DNA from: Aphrocallistes beatrix
Lineage: Eukaryota > Porifera > Hexactinellida > Sceptrulophora > Aphrocallistidae
Assembly (NCBI GenBank): GCA_963281255.1
Contig: OY725488.1
Coordinates: 7,041,524 to 7,105,523, forward strand
Reading direction: 5' to 3'
Length of the DNA: 64,000 nucleotides
In this document: positions 17,801-63,748 of the stretch, piece after piece
Layout: every line of letters begins with the position of its first letter
Position numbering within the stretch: the stretch's first letter is position 1
Made by a program: the position numbers and the translations under genes
The notes under the pieces: model-generated
The model's input: only the letters and a program-made list of their open reading frames with translations
Databases searched by the model: none
What the model was told of the DNA's origin: nothing

Positions 17801-19210
17801 ACTTGTGGTTGTGTTTTCATAGATGCTAATACAAAATACGTATCTTAGACAGTTTCTTCATTACAATATTTTAGAAACTTGTCCGATTGAAATCAAACTT
17901 AAAGTCAAAGATAATAATAGGTAGGTGAATAATCCTAGAAATTTTCAACAAAATCAAACGGAAGCAACTACTCCAGGCTCAAAACATATTGAGTGACCCT
18001 CGTACAACCTCAAACAATCTAGATTGGCGTTGAAAGTCTCAAGTATTTTTTTTATTTACTTTAAACCTAATCTCTACCATGCGTTATGCAAATACGTTAA
18101 CATGGCCGGTAGGTACTAGATACAGTTCATCCGATCCCATTCTGCTTGGTCCATATGCTGGCACCATTTTAGAATACTATGCGTACTACCATATGCCCTA
18201 ACTACTCATGTGTACTTGCAGCACATATTTAGCGTCGATTCCGGATGCATGAGTAATAATTGAATATTCTATTCGAAATGTCACAGCACGATTAAAATGA
18301 AATATAAAGCTTGCTAATTTGGTAGAACCCATTGACGATCGGAATGTTAATCGCAGGGCATACTTAAAGTAGTGGCTCGTGGTCAAATCTACCAGGAACT
18401 CCTGGCCTCCAAAATGTCAGACTATTTCAGTGCATTGTGTTAACACTGTTGTAATAAACTCGAACAATAATTTGTTAATCACTATGAGATACGTATTAAT
18501 TCCCCTTGTATCGTGTGTATTGGGGCTGCAATGATGATCCTACTTAACCCTTCACTTCTTCAGGTTGTGGTCCCATTCAGCTGTGGCAATTTCTACTGGA
18601 ACTCTTGCTTGATCCGAAATGCCATACATTCATTCACTGGACTGACAAAGAGTGGGAGTTTAAGCTGGTGAATCCAGAGGAAGTGGCGAAGAAATGGGGA
18701 CAGCGGAAGAACAAACCAAAAATGAATTATGAAAAGTTAAGTCGAGGTCTGCGGTATTATTATGATAAGAATATAATCCATAAGGTACCCGGGAAGAGGT
18801 ACGTGTATAGGTTTGTTTGCGACGTACAGAGACATGTAGGTTGCTCTTTTGAAGAGTTAATCTTGAAACTAAAAGGGGAAGCAGAGATCTCTCACTCTCC
18901 AGTCCACAGCCAGCCACTCTCCTCGGTCGAGCCCACTTTCACATTTACTCCCGATCATCATTTTATTTCAAGATCACCAAAAGCTTTTTGTCCTTCTCCT
19001 ACATTATACTCCCCCTCCCCTGGATCCATTTCCCCTTCTCCCACGGCTTTTCCATCCTCACCAACCATGTTTCCTATTTCTCCCATCACACACAGTACTT
19101 TACATATACAAGAACCAATGATGGCGAACTTAAGTCTGAGTCCTATCCGCTCTCCCAATTCCATTAATCACACAATGTTCAATCCCGCTCTGGGTTTCCA
19201 TTTCCAGTAG
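14830..19210 (+). CDS. ETS1/2-type transcription factor (PNT + ETS domains)
   Basis: Seven exons join in phase: 14830-15235, 15502-15585, 16061-16273, 16697-16795, 16863-17003, 17077-17244, 18564-19210, giving 585 residues. Residues 164-234 form a divergent SAM/Pointed domain ([16 protein letters not shown] through LEFLKK). A Ser/Pro-rich linker leads to the ETS domain (about 372-458), with [11 protein letters not shown], the [20 protein letters not shown] recognition helix, and [11 protein letters not shown]. These match ETS1/ETS2/Pointed better than GABPA or ERG. A Pro/Ser tail with many SP dipeptides ends the protein. A TP motif (T161) stands just before the PNT domain, as in the ERK site of ETS1/Pointed. 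The ETS domain binds GGA(A/T) DNA in the nucleus. The frame is open upstream of ATG 14830 back to an acceptor at 14719-14720, so a missing 5' coding exon is possible. The donor at 17004 (GTACTT) is the weakest join. Confidence 0.85.
17650..18002. mobile_element. Mariner-type MITE inside the last ETS intron
   Basis: Long terminal inverted repeats of roughly 50-60 bp, starting CGAGGGTCACTCGATAAG at the left and its near complement at the right, are flanked by TA (17648-17649 and 18003-18004). The CGAGGGTC start is typical of mariner elements and resembles the mariner at 53408. It is non-coding and lies in the intron 17245-18563, upstream of the ETS-domain exon. Confidence 0.85.
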
Positions 19211-25600: not shown

Positions 25601-28068
25601 TTCACTTATTTTCTCTTCGAAGTAGAAACTGAGATATTAAAACTAGTTTTTATATGGGTTGCTTATCTGACATATTTGAGTGGCATTTCTATTATTAATC
25701 CACTCTTGTTGATTATTTTTATTTACACCTCCACATTACACATTGTATCAGATCGATTTTCATCTTTGTAATTAATGTTTTTGAACCAGTTGCTATCTAG
25801 TTCTCTAACGTTTTGCTATCTTACTTGTAATACATACATATATATATATAATACTTATTTATATAATATTTCATTTCTTAGGTAATAAGATTAAATCTGA
25901 AGGCAAGTCCCGCCTGAGCTCATTTGAACCCACTAACAGATTGAAGCTAGCTTCGCAACAAAGTTCTTTTCTAGACTTTTCAAATCTCAAAGCCCAAAGA
26001 CTGAAACAGTTATCATCACTTCGCAAAACAATGTCTTACAACCACATAAATCTCACTCAAAACATTGAGTATTGCACGAGAAAAATTAGTCAAATGCCCT
26101 CACATTCTACTTCCCCACATAACTCACTCATAGAAAACAATGACTCGCGTCCAATGGAGTGTGATGAAGATTCACCTAATAATAAATTCAACACCGTTCG
26201 AATTAAACGCGAGCCATTTCCTGAAGAATGTGAAATGCCCATCACTCCCAAACTTGGTACATTTTGCCCAATCGAGCCCCCAGGTTTTATATACTCAAAT
26301 ATATCAAATTTCGCACAGCACGACACTACGTCTGATCAGGAAGAAACTTTCAACTCTAATATAGAGACTTGCTCCATCACCACGCCAGAACGAATCAGTC
26401 CTACACCTTTTTCAGTTGAGATAAATATCACTTCGGATGATCCCTCCTCTCCTGGTCCCACTGACATTCCATACATCCATTCCGAAACTCCATCTTCAAA
26501 TGGTTCTCCCATCCAACAGTTGAAACCAAGTTCAGAAAGTCTAGTAGTTAAACAGGACTTCGGGGATTACTACATCTGTCCTATCTCCACTACTTCTCCT
26601 CAGCCTGAAGCTCAAGCAGAATCTCCTGAGAACGGACACAGCACTGCTAGCAGCTATAACAGCACGATGGCCTATGAAGAGTCCGGAGAATGCATTCATT
26701 CTTGGCCAGCTAATAATGGCGGTGAGTTTTAACATACATCTTAGTTAACCGATATTGTCTGCGCAATGGATACTACTGCTACTGATCTAATCGATTGTCT
26801 AATTAGTTGTTATATCCTGGATAGGCAAATAATAAATTGCGTTATTAATTCTCATCGCTCATCAGCATGTAAACGTCATGAAATTTATTTTAGCTGATGT
26901 GAACCAAAATGGGAGATAAAATATAGGTTCGCATTTATTATCATTTTATGATATCTCAAGATTGTGCCTTGACGGATTTCATTCTATTTTCCACATTTTT
27001 CTTTAAAATTCTTTGCCGTATTTCCTTAAATGTAATTATATCTGACCTCCTTACTGATGGTGTCATGTTAATTATGCTCTCCATTTAATGAAGCCAACCT
27101 TGATTCTATTTTTAAAATTCAGCTATTTATCTACAAAGATGGCTTTATTTCCTTTGAATTATAAGGTTTTTTATAGAAATCTATTCTATGACACCATGCG
27201 TTTAAATTTTTGACTACGACACAAATGAACCCACTTAAACGTAGCATCACCATTTCCTTTAAAGTATTCTATTGAATGTTGTCATTATTATTGCCTTATT
27301 TTTGTTCCATTGTTATTTATTATTTGTTCGTTGTTAGGTCATGTTCAACTTTGGCAATTTCTTTTGGAGCTATTAAATGACGAAAAGAATTCTCACATCA
27401 TCAAGTGGGCTGGAAACAATGGAGAATTCAAATTACTAAACCCTGACGAAGTTTCGAGGAAATGGGGCGAAAGAAAGCGAAAACCCAACATGAATTACGA
27501 TAAATTGAGTCGTGCTATCCGATACTACTACGACAAAAAGATCATGTACAAGGTTCAAGGGCAGCGTTACGTATATAGATTCAACTTAGAGTCGTTACCA
27601 ATACTGAACAAACAAACCTTCCCTAAGTACAGTACGAAGTGTTCTTCTTGCACGTCCTCTGCTCCCCAGGTGCCCGCTCACCTCCCAGAGGCTGTCCTTC
27701 CTGATGCACCAGGGTCAGACTCTAAGCCCAACATTTCTAACAAGGTTTACACATCAATTCCCGTGTCTACAGCAACCAGCCAGAATTCAAACTCGATTCC
27801 TGGCGTACAGACGGGTTATATTCTTGCTCCCTCATTTAACAACATAATTCCTGGTATCCAAGGTATCCAAGGTATCCAAGGAATCCAAGGTATCCAAGGC
27901 ATCCAAGGTATCCAAGTAGTGATCCCCGATTTTAAATACTCGCAGCCTCTACTCTACAACCCATTAATGAACTCAATGCTTTGCATTCTACCTTCTACAA
28001 CTGACAATCCAAGTCCGCCTACATCAACTAAAGTGAATGATCCAATTAAAGTCCAAAAACTATATTAA
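22673..28068 (+). CDS. ERG/FLI-like ETS transcription factor without visible PNT domain
   Basis: Three exons join in phase: 22673-22739 (22 codons plus one base, donor GTGAGT), 25882-26721 and 27338-28068, giving 545 residues. The ETS domain (about 303-388) opens [17 protein letters not shown] and contains [38 protein letters not shown] and YVYRFN. The WGER and [12 protein letters not shown] signatures match ERG/FLI1 best among the ETS subfamilies I know. The middle exon is Ser/Pro-rich with SUMO-type sites (KIKSE, RIKREP). No Pointed domain is seen in the exons or in the 3.1 kb first intron, unlike vertebrate ERG/FLI1. After the ETS domain come seven GIQ repeats. The start ATG 22673 follows an acceptor-like AG at 22663-22664. 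It lies 3.5 kb downstream of the ETS1/2-like gene in the same orientation. The exact subfamily needs a tree. Confidence 0.8.
22740..25881. other. Large first intron of the ERG-like gene
   Basis: A 3.1 kb AT-rich intron between the short first coding exon and the central exon. I looked for a Pointed-domain exon and found no open segment resembling one. No clear transposon ends were seen either. Confidence 0.6.
27853..27915 (+). repeat. 9-bp coding minisatellite (GIQ x7)
   Basis: Seven tandem 9-bp units with consensus GGTATCCAA, including GGAATCCAA and GGCATCCAA variants, encode seven Gly-Ile-Gln repeats in the C-terminal part of the ERG-like protein. The near identity suggests recent expansion. 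Confidence 0.9.
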
Positions 28069-44946: not shown

Positions 44947-45262
44947 GTTATTTATCTATGCAGATTTATAACCATAAGTACAAACGATGCATACACCATA
45001 TTTTAATCTCCATGTAGTCAAAATACCTCCATAATTATAATTGGCCCCAATGTCATGATAATTTGACTCGTATAGGACGTATAGTTTATATTTGGCTGTT
45101 TGATCCCTGATTAGTCACATAACATTACTAAGGACTATTTTAGTGCAGGCAACAAATTACTCTAACTCTATTAAAACAGGAATTCCTATTTAATATGTTT
45201 GTATTCGATAAATTTCATTTTAATCTCTTCTAATTTCTCTAACCTTCTTCTATCAACCATAG

Positions 45263-45275
45263 CCTGGTCGTTACA
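45263..45275 (+). promoter_or_regulatory. Short 5' leader after an acceptor-like site
   Basis: A strong pyrimidine tract (45224-45260) ends in AG at 45261-45262, only 13 bp before the USP start codon. No upstream exon was recognised. It could be a cis-spliced leader or a trans-splice acceptor. Confidence 0.35.
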
Positions 45276-48200
45276 ATGAGCAGCGTTGATGCTGACGGTG
45301 AATGGAAAAGTGACCATTTTGCTCCTGGGATTGTTGCAGACGATTACAAACCTCAGATGAACGAAGATCAACTGATACAATCCACTTCTGACCTCACCCA
45401 GGAACCCTCTCCCTTGGACACGGGGAGATTGCCAAATGCTCTCCTCTCCAAAATAACCTATGAACCCTCTGAACCCTCTGAGTCTCCTTATCTGGAGGAT
45501 GCGAACGCACAGCCGGGAGTGTGTGGGCTGCGCAACTTGGGGAACACCTGTTACATGAACGCTGGAATCCAGGCACTTCTGAGTGTAGCACGTCTAACTC
45601 AGTACTTCAACTCCACTAGCACATCTTCAGAGCACTGCCCGCTATTGACTGACAATGCGATGGATAGCAAAGATTTTGATAAATTCCTGAGTCAAGTGGA
45701 CTCGTTACTCTTCCGTGCATACTCCAGACTCTCTCGGTCTGTCTGGTCAGGAAAATATTCCTACCTCACTCCCACTAATTTCAAGGCCTTCCTGGGGGAG
45801 GCTTTCCATCCTTTCAGAGGGTACAAGGCACACGACTGCCAAGAGTTTATGGGCGTCTTTCTCGACCACATGAACGCCGTTCTCAAAACGGAAAGACTGA
45901 AGTTCTCAAACACAGACGAGTTACTCTCCTCTGAACCATCTAAAAAGTCCCCCCGGTTAGAAGGGGAAGACACCTCTCCATCTGTCAACCACTTGCCTCA
46001 GATAATAAGCGAGGAGCCGACGGTGGTGGAGGATGCGTTCATGGGGCTGTTCTCTACGAAAATAACTTGCTCCGAGTGCAGACAGGAGATTTTACTGGAG
46101 GAACCGTTCTTCTTCCTTTCTGTTCCTCTGCCTCGAGGTTTTGAGAGACAGGTAATAACTAGGTTCCCCGAACTACTCTGCGCTTTCATATTCACTCCAC
46201 TCCACTCCTTTAGTTCCGAATCACCTGGTGTCCTCTAACCCCTATCCCATCTGGAGAAGACTGTTTGGCTCCAGACTCCACGCCCATCTCAGTGACAGAG
46301 TGCCTAGTTACCGTGTTCAAAAATCAAAACGTGTCCGACCTGAAGACCTCGCTCCTGCAGATGATGGCACTGAGTGTGGCGCCTGCCGCTGTGTCGCTAG
46401 TAGAGGTAAGCGGGAGCACACCTCATCGCTTACTTCAAGACGCACTCATTGTTTCCTACATCAAGGATGATTTCAGGTCTGTGTACGCTGTAGAAATGAA
46501 GGTCACCCCCTCTTCCAGCCTTGACAGGGTCGCCACGAGTCCTCTCAGTGAGGACGCTGAAGTCACAGTTTCGAAGCCGCTCATTCCGAGCATCAACGGC
46601 GTTGTTAGCTCCACCACAGGAGAGGACATCCCTGGTGCCAACTCTACCCCTCACCAAACTGCGGAAGATGCACCCTCTAAAGAGAAGGAAGACCCTCCTG
46701 TCAACCCGGCCTCTCTCTCCTACCACACGTGTGCCATCTGTCTAGAAGAAATCCAGGACACAGACCTGATGGTGCACCCCACCTGTGGCTGTACCCTGTG
46801 CGAGACCTGCCTCAGTCTGAACTGCTCCCGCGTTACGGACTCCGGGGACACGCCCTGTCCGGTCTGCTCCGAGGCAACCACCACCGAATCTTTCATCCCC
46901 TACCCCCAGCTGCAGACCTACCAGCCTGAGACCAAGAGGGTTCCCATGTTTGTCATATTTCGACACAAGACCCCTCTTGATACGCCAGACGGGGATCGGC
47001 GGAGCCATAAGCTACAGCCTTTCTCGCACCCATGTCTCATGGAGGTGGACAACCATCTGAAGGGATACCAGCTCTACTCATGGGTCACTGAGTTGCCTCG
47101 GCCCTCTATCTTTCAGTTGGACCTAACCTTCCAACTTAGTCTGACCGACGATCTGCAAGACACCCGTCAAGTGCCTCCTGATTTTAGTGACGTCATCGTG
47201 AGACCCTCAGACCGGCTATTCGTAAGTGTTCGAGAAGAGAGCTGTAGCACACGAGCAATCTGTTCGATTGAATTATTTACTCTCTTAGGTAGATTTCGAA
47301 GCTGTTCCTGACATGGTCGTTGAGGCCGCTGGGAAGAAAATGAAACACGCTTCTGTCGAGGAAGAGAGACGAGAGCCACTCACTCTCTGGAACTGTCTGG
47401 AAGCGTTCTCTCAATTAGAATTCCTCGGTCCTGAGAATATGTGGTTCTGCCCAAAGTGCGAGGAGAGCAAGTCAGCGGAGAAGTTCATCCGCATCAAAGA
47501 GCTCCCTTCTACGCTCATCATACACTTGAAGAGATTCGCGTTTCACGGCAGTCGGGGCGACAAGATCGATGCTCCGGTCAAATTTCCTTTCTCCGATACA
47601 GACTTTAGCAGTTATGTCTTCTCCTCAGACTCCACTCAGACTCACAGACTCTCTCCCTCCTCTCCTGCGTACGACCTTATCAGCTGTGTGTGCCACTTCG
47701 GTGGGCTGCATGGGGGCCACTACACTGCTTACACTAAACACCCCATCTCTCAAGATTGGGTCTACTATAACGACCACAAAGCTGAGCTCCGGAATCCAGA
47801 GGAGCAGACAGACACATGCAAGGAGGCCTACATCCTCATTTACCAGCAGAGAGGAGAGTCCGCGCAGATCCAGGCCTCCACTGAGCTGGAGGAGAGAGAG
47901 GAGGAGAGAAGGATGGTGCAGCTGATCGTCGAGAGGATCCAGAGAGAGGAGGCAGCAAAGGTTGTGTATGGTCCCGCTCCTGCTCCCGTATCCGGTCCAA
48001 CCCAGAACCCATTCATCAAGGACACGTATATGATTGATTTTGAGGAGTTCAGTGAGGATTACTACCCGGACAACCCATCCTCTGCACGAGTGATTACCGA
48101 TGGTATCGATACGAGTGCTTCCGGTCAATCGAAAGAGGCAGACCTTTCAGAGAACAACGACACTTTGACAATAGCAGACACACAAGTGTCCTCAGCTGAT

Positions 48201-48278
48201 TCTACTGATAAATCTCCCAAAATAAACGTTGCCGTAACAGATCATAACTTGGATTTCCAATGGGATCACATCATGTAG
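45276..48278 (+). CDS. Ubiquitin-specific protease with RING-like insert
   Basis: Three exons join in phase 0: 45276-46151, 46214-47221, 47289-48278, giving 957 residues. An acidic N-terminus of about 80 residues precedes the USP domain. The Cys box GLRNLGNTCYMNAGIQALL holds the nucleophile C92; the His box GGLHGGHYTAY holds H772. The finger cysteines CSEC and WFCPKC are present. Between the two halves, as in USP4/15/19, lies a long insert with a UBL-like stretch (about 305-385) and, at 465-510, a zinc-finger pattern C-x2-C-x14-C-x-C-x2-C-x2-C-x15-C-x2-C (CAIC, CGCTLCETC, CPVC). This is RING spacing with Cys in place of His, and it keeps the Ile and Pro that contact E2s. USP19 carries a MYND finger at a comparable place. 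No DUSP domain is seen. The tail contains a Glu/Arg-rich helix (about 825-860). Predicted role: deubiquitination, perhaps joined to E3 activity; substrates unknown. Confidence 0.88.
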
Positions 48279-56504: not shown

Positions 56505-56600
56505 GATGAATTGAATTAATAATTTTTTCCGAAATTAAGGATTTATAATTTTCAGTTTCAAAATGTTTCCTGTACACTCTTTGCTACTACATTGTCTATA

Positions 56601-56612
56601 CTTTGCTTAGCT
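56601..56612 (+). promoter_or_regulatory. Acceptor-like site directly before the TUG start
   Basis: A pyrimidine-rich stretch (about 56565-56608) ends CTTTGCTTAG, and the start ATG follows after two bases. There is hardly room for a promoter, 5' exon and cis-intron in the 232-bp gap, which makes a trans-splice acceptor a reasonable alternative. Confidence 0.4.
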
Positions 56613-58346
56613 ATGGCTTCTTCCAACCTAACCGTCATGTCTCCAAATGGACATCGAGTTGTTTTGAAGGTGAACAACAACTCTCCTCTCTGTCTGGGAC
56701 TCGAAGAGGCCTGTAATCAATTTGAATTAGAATCCAGTTGGTTTGGTTTGAAACACATAAAACGGTTCCTGGATATCAGTTCAACCGTCCGGCAATCAGG
56801 TGTACCTAACAACGCCACTCTAGAACTGTACAAACTGGAGAAGGAGCGTGTTACGGCGTCAGTACGCATTGCCTTGTTGCTTCCAGATGGTGGCAGGTTG
56901 ATGGGAGTACATCCAGCAAGCACCTGCTTATGGGAAGTTCTTTCTACAACTGAGAAAGAGGGAGAGCTCGTCACCCCTCTCTGCTACCCTGGTGGTATTC
57001 CTACACGGGTACCTTGTCTGGAGTATGCGAAGATTAAAGTGATTGGAGAAGATGAGCTGAGAAGCAGGAACCTGAAGAACATCGGGATCTTGGCAGGCAG
57101 TGTGGTCATCCGCTACTCCGCAGTAGAGTTACAAGACATACCGAAAGTCATCTCAGAGGACGTTGTCGTGTTAAAAGGTTACAATCGCCCTGTCCCAGTA
57201 CCGGAGCAACCAAATCGACACCCTCCATCTTCCAACCCCCCTCCCTTTCCAATCCACCAGATGACTGTATTAGGACAAGGGATTTCTGAGGTAGATCCTG
57301 CTTTTTCTAACCTTCTTAATACTCCCTGGTCTTTCGATCTAAAGTCTGAAGAAGAGCTCAAGCGAGAGGAGGAGCGTAAAAAGCCGAGGGAACTATTCTC
57401 TAACCCTGGAGGTTGGAGTCATGAAAAAGGCCCTTTCGAAAATGTCAATCTAGGAGCTATCCTAACTCAGGCACTCATACCAGTCGTTCCTCCAGAAGAG
57501 GATTATATCGCTCAGTTTAACCAGCTACGAGCTGAGAAAACAGGAGAACCCCTTCCCCAGCCAGATGAGGACAATCCTCCATTAGTGATCCCTGCCCCTG
57601 ATCCGCCAAATATCGAGCCGATCACACACATCTCCCCAGTTCAAAGGGTGTATGAAGAGGCTTGTCCTCGAGACACGTGTGTATTCCATCTCGATAAGAA
57701 CGAATATTCGGATGTAATTCCTGTTGAGTTAGATGATGCGTTTTTTCAGCCTACAATGAGCGAGGCTGCAAAGCGACAAAAAGAGTTAGAAAAACAGAAT
57801 GCACAACTGAATGACTCTCCACTCACTATCCAGACCTATAAGAAGGCCCGAGAGGTTTCAAATTTAGACAAGTATGACAAAACTGTTATACGGGTTATAT
57901 TGCCCAATCGGTTGGTGTTGCAAGGTGTATTCCGTTCCGGAGAACCAGTCAGAGCCCTTGTGAGTTTTATACGAGAGTCTCTAGTCGATCCCAAACTCAA
58001 ATTCCACCTATTCACAACTCCACCGAAGAAAGTGATCAAAAACGGAAAAGTTACATTCAAAGAGGCTAATTTAATTCCTGCTAGCAATGTTCTCCTCGCA
58101 CTAGATGAAACAGCAGAGGGCCTACTGCTGCAAGAAGATCTGCTGGACCAGGTAGCGACGCAGCTAGAAGCAGATGTCAAGAGTTCGAAGGAGAGGGCCA
58201 CCGTCTTACCTACAGACAACATTGGGACTGTTAGTGCCAGCAGCGAACCAGCACAGTCCCGTTCTAGAACGCAGAAGGGAAGGAGACAGGGAAGTGGGGA
58301 CAGTAAAGGAACCGGAAAACCGAAATGGCTGAAAGTAGGGAAGTAG
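56613..58346 (+). CDS. ASPSCR1: ASPSCR1/TUG, UBX-domain p97 cofactor
   Basis: One uninterrupted reading frame of 577 residues. The N-terminal ubiquitin-like domain (about 1-75) reads LTVMSPNGHRVVLKV and VPNNATLELYK, and a second ubiquitin-like region follows (VRIALLLPDGGRL, TCLWEVLS, GGIPTRVP), both as in vertebrate TUG. The middle is Pro/Glu-rich. The UBX domain (about 425-510) contains VLQGVFRSGEPV and FHLFTTPPKKVI, where human TUG has the unusual TPPK instead of the canonical UBX FPR loop. The last residues GKPKWLKVGK match the conserved TUG C-terminus (PKWLK). TUG tethers GLUT4 vesicles in vertebrates and disassembles p97 hexamers. The ATG at 56613 gives the expected N-terminus. The absence of introns contrasts with the four upstream genes. 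Confidence 0.93.
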   Translation: MASSNLTVMSPNGHRVVLKVNNNSPLCLGLEEACNQFELESSWFGLKHIKRFLDISSTVRQSGVPNNATLELYKLEKERVTASVRIALLLPDGGRLMGVHPASTCLWEVLSTTEKEGELVTPLCYPGGIPTRVPCLEYAKIKVIGEDELRSRNLKNIGILAGSVVIRYSAVELQDIPKVISEDVVVLKGYNRPVPVPEQPNRHPPSSNPPPFPIHQMTVLGQGISEVDPAFSNLLNTPWSFDLKSEEELKREEERKKPRELFSNPGGWSHEKGPFENVNLGAILTQALIPVVPPEEDYIAQFNQLRAEKTGEPLPQPDEDNPPLVIPAPDPPNIEPITHISPVQRVYEEACPRDTCVFHLDKNEYSDVIPVELDDAFFQPTMSEAAKRQKELEKQNAQLNDSPLTIQTYKKAREVSNLDKYDKTVIRVILPNRLVLQGVFRSGEPVRALVSFIRESLVDPKLKFHLFTTPPKKVIKNGKVTFKEANLIPASNVLLALDETAEGLLLQEDLLDQVATQLEADVKSSKERATVLPTDNIGTVSASSEPAQSRSRTQKGRRQGSGDSKGTGKPKWLKVGK

Positions 58347-60226: not shown

Positions 60227-61422
60227 TTCTTGAGTAGATCACATTAGTAGGTCCTACCCATAGGTAAGTCTGTGTGAAGAACATTGTTAGAATGTAGTGA
60301 TAACTGTGTTTGTCGAATGTTCACTGTACTTATTGTCCCAGGACTAGTGTTAATTGTTTGTTTTGATAGGGCACTTATTTACATTTATACTTATCGAAAT
60401 CAAAGTAGCTTCTTTTTTATCTCGATAGATGGGATCTCGGATTGATATTGGTTTTTAAGTCTGAATGATGAGGTGAAAGCTGATTAAGTTCATCATGTTT
60501 AACTGGTGCCTGGAGGATATGTTAAGTTATTAACCATATCACTGGGTATTAATTCGACAGGAATCTTAATATTTTAACAATACTGAATATACGTATATAG
60601 CTACGTAATATTTCTCTGGTTGCCAATAAATCAAATCCATCCAAATGTTTTCGATATACTACATATCGTATATGGTTTGGATATCTGCACCGTGTTAACA
60701 ATCTCTTTTAGGATAAATGTGACGAGTCTTAGAAAGATCATTTTTAGCAAGTTTATTCGTGGGATTTTCTAAATCGGTCATTGTTAATTTTCAGTAATTA
60801 ATATTTAGACATAATTACTGACTCAAGTACATATACATGTACATATACGTATGTAATTAGGCCGTGCGTCAAACTATTTCTAACCTAATTGCGAGATTTT
60901 CAAATTAAACTTGCGTTAGTAATTATTCCAAAGTTCTAAAGTGATGCTGTACACTTATTATTTCTTTTATGGTTGTAGAAACAAAAATCTTGGGACTGAC
61001 AAAATTCAACAAATAATAACATCTCGAAGCTGCTCCTAATGACACCGAGATGCACGGTGAAATTTTATTTCATCAACATATGGCAGCAAGTAAGATAGCA
61101 ATTTTGATCTACGAAGCATCATGGACATCTGAAAATTGACTCGAATCACTACAATTATACTATACACGTACTACCCAGTACCATATCCTTGCTCTCTGTT
61201 ATATTCTACTACTGAAACTTGTTTTACTTAGCAGACCTTGGATTGCTCACAGATACAGAATATCGCTAGTCTAGCTGCTACACTAAATTATAAGCACTGA
61301 CCTCGTCTTATATAAAAGCTGTTGATAGTTTGCAGATTAAACTTTAGGTAGTTACATTGTCGCTCTCTCTCCCTCTGTTCATTCAACAAACAAACGTTCA
61401 AGGCTTTTATCATATAAATGCA
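60227..61422. other. Intergenic interval between VDAC and DRAP1
   Basis: About 1.2 kb, AT-rich, with the VDAC poly(A) signal candidate at 60625-60630. Acceptor-like AGs end at 61335 and 61347. A CT-rich stretch (61360-61377) lies in the probable DRAP1 leader. No gene or mobile element was recognised. Confidence 0.5.
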
Positions 61423-62322
61423 ATGCCTCCCAAACGCAAATTCAACAGTCGTTTTCCTTCCGCGCGCATCAAGAAGATAATGCAGTCAGATGACGACATC
61501 GGAAAGGTTTCAGCCCCTGTTCCACTGGTTGTCAGTCGAGCCGTGGAGGTTTTCTTGGAGTCTCTTCTCTCCAAAGCTCAGGAACAGTTGGAGAAGTCCA
61601 AAACTGCTTCAAAAACTCTTTCACCCGCGCACCTCAAGCGTTGTATTGAGACTGAGCCCAAGTTTGACTTCCTTCGGGATTTAGTTCAGCACGTGGCAGA
61701 CATCAGACCGACCACACCTGAGATCGCCTCGCGCGCCCAGAGCCTCGCGATGAACCACAAACACCCCACCGCATCTGGCCCCCTCGGTCCTTCCTCCAGC
61801 TGCACCACGCCGACAGGGGACGTGAAAAGAAAGAGGGGGAGACCCCCAGGCTCTGGGAAGAAATCAGGGGATGGAACAGCTGTGAAGAAGCCTAAACAAG
61901 TATTTTTTAATGCTGATGGCACTCCATATAAGCCTCGACGCGGCAGGAAATCTAAAGCCTGGAAAGATGCTGTTGCTAGAGGAGAGAACCCTCTTCTCGT
62001 GCTCGGACAAACAGCTCAACCCTCTATTACCTCACAGGTTCCCCCTTCCGTAATCCACACCCTCCCACCACCTCCAATCGCACCCGATCAGCCCTTAGGA
62101 CCACAAGAGGACATGAATGCGCATACTCACTCCCGACTCGTCATTGACGGTTCTGCTCCCTCAGACAGTCCCGCCCCTGCTAGCACCTCCAACTTATTAG
62201 TGCCGTCTGCGGCTCCATCAAATGATACCAAATCGAAATCTCCCACTCCTCACCTGAATAGCTACAATATGAGCGCCATACTAAACAGAGAAGTGAGTGA
62301 GGATGACGACTATGACAGCTAG
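61423..62322 (+). CDS. DRAP1: DRAP1/NC2-alpha, histone-fold transcription corepressor
   Basis: One uninterrupted frame of 299 residues (human 205). The start [20 protein letters not shown] and the histone fold to about residue 85 ([38 protein letters not shown]) follow NC2-alpha closely. An AT-hook-like [13 protein letters not shown] comes at about 126-138 and a second basic RRGRKSK motif near 167. The tail is Pro/Ser-rich and ends DDDYDS, like human DRAP1. With DR1 (NC2-beta) it binds TBP on DNA and blocks TFIIA/TFIIB recruitment. I chose ATG 61423 because the protein then starts exactly like its homologues; the frame is open further upstream but has no in-frame ATG there. An out-of-frame ATG five bases upstream (61418) might reduce initiation. 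Confidence 0.93.
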
Positions 62323-63267: not shown

Positions 63268-63440
63268 TAATATACTTTTACGATAAAACGTAGATTTAGA
63301 TTTTTTTTGTTATCTCAATCAGGACGTCGTCATGATGACGTTAGCATAATATTGTAGAAACATCCATTACTGAACATTTCATCGGTCACACTTAATTAGG
63401 ATTTATTCTTATATTCATGTGTGATATTCATCTTGGTAAA

Positions 63441-63748
63441 CGGACATTTCGTCGCATGGATATTTCGTCGCGGACATTTCGTCACATAGACATTTTGTCT
63501 CCTGAACATAAGTTACCGGATAATGAGTAGCGTCCCTGGAATTTTTGTCCCCGAAATATTCGTCTCATTAGAGACTAAAATAAACGGGTACTAATATGTA
63601 AGGAACGGAAATTGAGGCTTTTGGAGTGGAGTATATTTGAAAAAAAGGGCGAAAATGAGGGCTTTTTATTGAGAAATAAGTAGGTACAAATTGGACATTT
63701 GGGGACAAAATTCCGCGTGACGAAATGTCCGTGCGACGAAGTGTCCGT
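63441..63748. mobile_element. Inverted-repeat element of GGACATTTCGTCGC units
   Basis: Head units CGGACATTTCGTCGC, ATATTTCGTCGC and GGACATTTCGTCAC run from 63441 to about 63502. The tail has inverted counterparts, GTGACGAAATGTCCGTG and CGACGAAGTGTCCG (63716-63748). The subunits are internally repeated, giving a compound terminal inverted repeat. Class unknown. Confidence 0.7.

Follow-up and report, generated by a model that had tools for sequence, protein, structure and literature searches.

The sponge DNA analysed here, a stretch of 64,000 nucleotides that we call the window, contains a gene whose product is a ubiquitin-specific protease (USP), predicted from its sequence to be probably active, whose catalytic insert carries an eight-cysteine motif of the RING type. 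As a rule, ligases and deubiquitinases are distinct proteins, opposed in action; a RING in the catalytic insert of a USP would unite a module of either type within a single chain, and would be of real interest if it were conserved or active. We favour, with a probability of roughly one half, the reading that the insert RING of this USP would dock an E2 enzyme or a partner RING ligase beside the protease.

The protease and its gene

The Pfam UCH profile (PF00443) aligned from its first to its last position (1-254 of 254) with residues 83-813 of the predicted protein, at an E value of 5.4e-55. Both catalytic residues that had been named in the original prediction, Cys92 in NTCYMN and His772 in GGHYTAY, were found in place, and the Cys pairs of the zinc ribbon, C265/C268 and C682/C685 (the latter in exon 3), are both kept. 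Asn789 and Asp790, in the exon 3 motif WVYYND, are candidates for the third catalytic position. Among the best 60 of 98 PDB matches of the protein, USP15 (4.3e-59), USP11 (3.9e-54) and USP4 (4.7e-53) lead, and USP19, USP31, USP32 and USP43 are absent; exon 1 as a query likewise returned USP15 first (6cpm, E 3.8e-29), then USP11 and USP4. The first catalytic half ends at about residue 287 in the PDB alignments listed and the second starts at about residue 659, so that an insert of about 370 residues is delimited with the motif within it. The proposed position of the motif between the two USP halves is thus borne out by both the profile and the PDB alignments.

At E values up to 1, a Pfam scan of the full 957-residue protein returned two UCH models and two RING models and nothing else. 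Since neither a DUSP nor an N-terminal Ubl model was found among the 957 residues at that threshold, we file the protein as a USP and not as a member of the USP4/11/15 group. The gene model (Table 1) is regular: all joins are in phase 0, and the joined exons hold a single stop codon, which is terminal. Just 5' of the USP ATG, inspection by eye revealed a pyrimidine-rich stretch (45221-45275) with an AG at 45261-45262; this AG is a plausible splice acceptor, and the gene model may lack a further 5' exon. With regard to a DUSP exon upstream, 10 of the 31 plus-strand ORFs of at least 40 amino acids gave no Pfam match at 0.01.

Table 1. Features of the USP gene, in positions of the window
Feature	Position	Strand	Remarks
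USP gene, three exons	45276-48278	+	957 residues encoded
Exon 1	45276..46151	+	N-terminal tail and first USP catalytic half, with Cys box and C265/C268
Cys92 codon	45549	+	catalytic Cys, NTCYMN
Intron 1	46152..46213	+	62 bp, GT..AG, phase 0 join
Exon 2	46214..47221	+	bulk of the insert that separates the catalytic halves, RING included; 1008 bp
Putative ubiquitin-like domain	46307..46504	+	residues 324-389; weak alignment to presumed human USP15 and USP19 insert segments
RING-type zinc finger	46730-46867	+	residues 465-510, exon 2, in frame
Ser511 codon	46868..46870	+	linchpin position, Arg/Lys usual
Intron 2	47222..47288	+	67 bp, GT..AG, phase 0 join
Exon 3	47289..48278	+	end of the insert, second catalytic half, C-terminal tail, stop
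His772 codon	47718	+	catalytic His, GGHYTAY

The neighbours of the USP gene in the window are two ETS-domain genes, CDC45, a TUG/UBX gene, a VDAC-type porin gene and a histone-fold gene. This set points to an animal, ETS genes being an animal trait. The TUG/UBX gene, one ORF of 607 residues at 56523-58346 with TUG-UBL1 and UBX domains, is a second ubiquitin-related gene in the window. The ETS-domain genes (18548-19210 and 27229-28068; Pfam E 9.8e-37 and 1.7e-34) share one strand, are separated by about 8 kb and are possibly a local duplication; a 9-bp tandem repeat at 27853-27916 (GGTATCCAA, 7.1 copies) is in frame with the second of these ORFs and encodes a Gly-Ile-Gln repeat. The histone-fold protein (61348-62322; CBFD_NFYB_HMF, E 3.4e-15) is presumably NC2alpha/DRAP1-like, and its GRPPGSGKK resembles, by eye, an AT-hook. 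Finally, an inverted repeat of 33 nt at 63440-63748, whose arms are 88% complementary and stand 243 nt apart, contains direct repeats like CGGACATTTCGTC and looks like a small terminal-inverted-repeat element.

The RING-type motif in the catalytic insert

The motif reads C-x2-C-x14-C-x-C-x2-C-x2-C-x15-C-x2-C, with C465, C468, C483, C485, C488, C491, C507 and C510 as ligands, and a further Cys inside the RING, C496, comes in addition to these eight. The pattern agrees exactly with the one originally predicted, in one exon and in the same frame as both USP halves, and the span first proposed (46650-46885) contains it after 80 bases of linker. The arrangement is all-Cys, Cys485 replacing the canonical RING His, and apart from this exchange the ligand spacings fit the canonical ranges given in the available part of PMC7010608. 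None of 20,000 shuffles of the 957-residue protein produced a loose RING pattern that accepted Cys in the His position.

The Pfam score of the motif as a RING is marginal: the zf-RING_UBOX model scored 25.4 bits on a 91-residue fragment, just passing its cut-off of 25.2 bits, versus 19.3 bits, below that cut-off, in the full-length scan. The fragment scan returned eight other models, seven of them RING-named, every one below its own cut-off. Pfam matches were listed at E up to 1, and HMMER filters discard most matches above about 0.1. A MYND or a B-box identity of the finger is unsupported, given that neither model was found at E up to 1 and that the ligand spacing is RING-like; a scan against NCBIfam gave nothing relevant. 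When exon 2 was compared with the PDB at E up to 10, 31 of the 32 distinct sequences matched were RING proteins, two of which (AT5G66160 and MAT1) we presume to be such, and the other was UL37. The three matches with E < 0.01 are all TRIMs, namely TRIM5 (2.2e-4 and 0.0012) and TRIM34 (0.0099), and the remaining RING matches are individually weak. A His occupies the position equivalent to Cys485 in all five PDB alignments listed, which represent three named proteins. Relatives were also sought in viral contigs and prokaryote genomes, collections with few eukaryote genes: the whole protein had none in the viral contigs, where 4 stretches fitted the pattern of the RING fragment and 0 were confirmed, and exon 3 gave 28 stretches in the prokaryote genomes that fitted the pattern, again with 0 confirmed.

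Fold prediction was compatible with this identification. AF2 on exon 2 as a single sequence gave a useless model (mean pLDDT 32.5). The RING-pattern scans for alignment material yielded 0, 1, 2, 0, 0 and 0 loci; two viral-contig RINGs, L002 and L003, were used for the alignment, and L001 was excluded as its ORF, by eye, lacks the C-terminal RING Cys pair. As the search patterns demanded C-G-H, a His in L002 and L003 carries no weight as evidence. The RING fragment aligned with these two sequences reached a mean pLDDT of 57.1, with values of 64-72 in residues 11-40. This weak model had 210 Foldseek matches in the PDB at E up to 10, none of the 210 at 0.001 or better; eight of the top ten titles name a RING or RBR protein, with 1wim leading at E 0.07, and besides these the top ten comprise a dehydrogenase subunit and a PHD-finger complex. 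The model thus fits a RING fold and is no proof of one.

The positions through which RINGs contact E2 enzymes are, in the available part of PMC7010608, a hydrophobic residue between the first and second Cys, further along a Trp, His or Leu, then a Pro within the last Cys pair and, directly following this Pro, another hydrophobic residue. The motif indeed starts with CAIC and ends with CPVC, as had been noted, and retains the hydrophobic residue and the Pro; three of the four contact positions fit (Ile467, Pro508 and Val509), and Leu492 or Leu494 are candidates for the fourth. An Arg or Lys directly after the eighth ligand, the linchpin, is usual though not universal and promotes ubiquitin transfer (PMC13061254 and PMC7010608, both in part). 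Among the comparators this residue is Arg in six of seven (four of the five listed PDB alignments as well as L002 and L003) and Gly in TRIM34 (CPVCG). The suggested recruitment of an E2 would agree with the contact residues. As Ser511 replaces the basic residue at the linchpin, the RING probably does not drive efficient transfer alone.

The part of the insert before the RING, where we place the putative ubiquitin-like domain, aligned weakly with presumed insert segments of human USP15 and USP19, and its score was reached by 13 of 2000 shuffles for USP15 and 5 of 2000 for USP19. The part after the RING, compared with the same presumed segments, had scores reached by 252 and 124 of 2000 shuffles, respectively, and its likeness to USP15 or USP19 is unsupported. 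For a Ubl in the insert there was no relevant match in Pfam or the PDB, the one PDB match (UL37, E 0.16) being at chance level. The catalytic domain of USP19 contains an embedded Ubl and an embedded MYND finger, as stated in the available part of PMC13349892. The parallel that had been drawn with the MYND finger of USP19 is correct to that extent, and it is plausible, not more, that the RING sits at the same insertion point.

Possible roles of the finger

The reading that we favour is that of a docking or partner RING. The RING would fold as a separate module adjoining the fingers and might bind an E2, or pair with another RING ligase, via Ile467, Pro508 and Val509; the protease would thereby be placed at growing ubiquitin chains, which it could trim or edit. 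The RING might act in this like the non-E2-binding partners in the RING heterodimers BRCA1-BARD1 and MDM2-MDMX, which are described in the available part of PMC7010608 as enhancing the activity of the other RING. The full-length RING score of 19.3 bits, the low AF2 confidence, the Cys485 in place of His and the failure to find a relative with this insert in the viral and prokaryote collections speak against it. We nevertheless rank it above a purely structural or targeting finger, and the latter above an autonomous dual enzyme. The marginal RING score and the absent linchpin would suit a repurposed RING with no E2 role, which would shape the insert, set the location of the protein or bind substrate. 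The B-box of CYLD might be a model for such a finger, as this RING-like module had no E3 activity with 16 E2s (PMC13061254, in part) and matters for cytoplasmic localisation (PMC4304536, in part). The contact residues Ile467, Pro508 and Val509, however, would not be required for a structural finger, and we consider this second reading possible but doubtful. The original prediction had raised a single enzyme that could both attach and remove ubiquitin. On this third reading the RING would recruit and activate an E2 as an E3, and the USP on the same chain would remove or remodel the ubiquitin chain, an A20-like form of editing. The full ligand pattern together with Ile467, Pro508 and Val509 is in its favour, as are the listing of RING-C4C4 among RING arrangements (PMC13061254, in part), the precedent of A20 (TNFAIP3), in which deubiquitinase and ligase functions share one protein (PMC4304536, in part), and the non-basic linchpin residue in the alignment with TRIM34. 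Against these points stand Ser511, at the position where nearly all comparators have Arg, and the marginal profile score; with the weak fold models and the inactive CYLD B-box added, ubiquitin attachment is unsupported. We therefore regard the dual enzyme as unlikely; if true, a single catalytic domain would combine the attachment of ubiquitin with its removal.

The gene model was built on genomic sequence alone, and two genes, or a segment that is spliced out, might have been read as one protein. Several observations argue against such an artefact of gene model or assembly, which we judge very improbable. The RING lies within an uninterrupted exon of 1008 bp with sequence on either side of it, and is flanked by the two halves of one USP in the correct order. 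Third-position GC lies between 0.55 and 0.70 across the five gene segments that were measured, and the RING segment has the maximum. Moreover, within the 170 bases that precede the RING, each of the seven GT sites falls short of seven of the nine donor consensus positions. This lack of a strong upstream donor speaks against splicing out of the RING segment and is not decisive, because the donors of the two accepted introns score 7 and 6, one of them below the threshold of 7/9. Around the RING segment, 37 GT-AG pairs would preserve the frame, and two downstream acceptors score well.

Novelty and comparison with known systems

No description of a USP-RING fusion was found in the literature searched, the coverage of which was partial, and nothing there contradicted the original statement that no animal USP with a RING at this place has been described. 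None appears in the available parts of works on the evolution of USP4, USP11 and USP15 (PMC4624187), on auxiliary domains of USPs (PMC13376213) and on domain networks of the ubiquitin system (PMC4327156), and 'ring' as the start of a word occurs 0 times in the available text of PMC13376213. The same architecture may already be present among automatic annotations. USPs that carry an embedded zinc finger are a known type, and a RING within the catalytic domain would be an addition to the MYND finger of USP19 and the B-box of CYLD; the three together suggest that this site of the USP catalytic domain repeatedly accepts zinc modules.

Among the best 60 of 98 PDB matches, the closest solved catalytic domains are those of USP15, USP11 and USP4, which likewise have an insert and the zinc-ribbon Cys. 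The sponge protein differs from them in that DUSP and Ubl models are absent from its 957 residues; for USP4, the insert is termed unstructured and a RING finger goes unmentioned in the available part of PMC4624187. USP19, as far as the source cited above describes it, is similar in having a zinc finger, and perhaps also a Ubl, within the catalytic insert, but MYND and CS models are absent here (E up to 1) and the spacing is RING-like. CYLD, with a B-box inside its USP domain (PMC4304536, in part), offers a RING-like zinc module within such a domain, whereas B-box and CAP-Gly models are absent from the sponge protein (E up to 1). The best sequence matches of the sponge RING are the RINGs of TRIM5, TRIM34 and TRIM21, from which it differs by the Cys for His, the Ser at the linchpin and a host protein that is a protease. 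A20, finally, is an OTU protease with A20-type fingers, in contrast to the USP presented in this work, whose RING-type motif is known from sequence.
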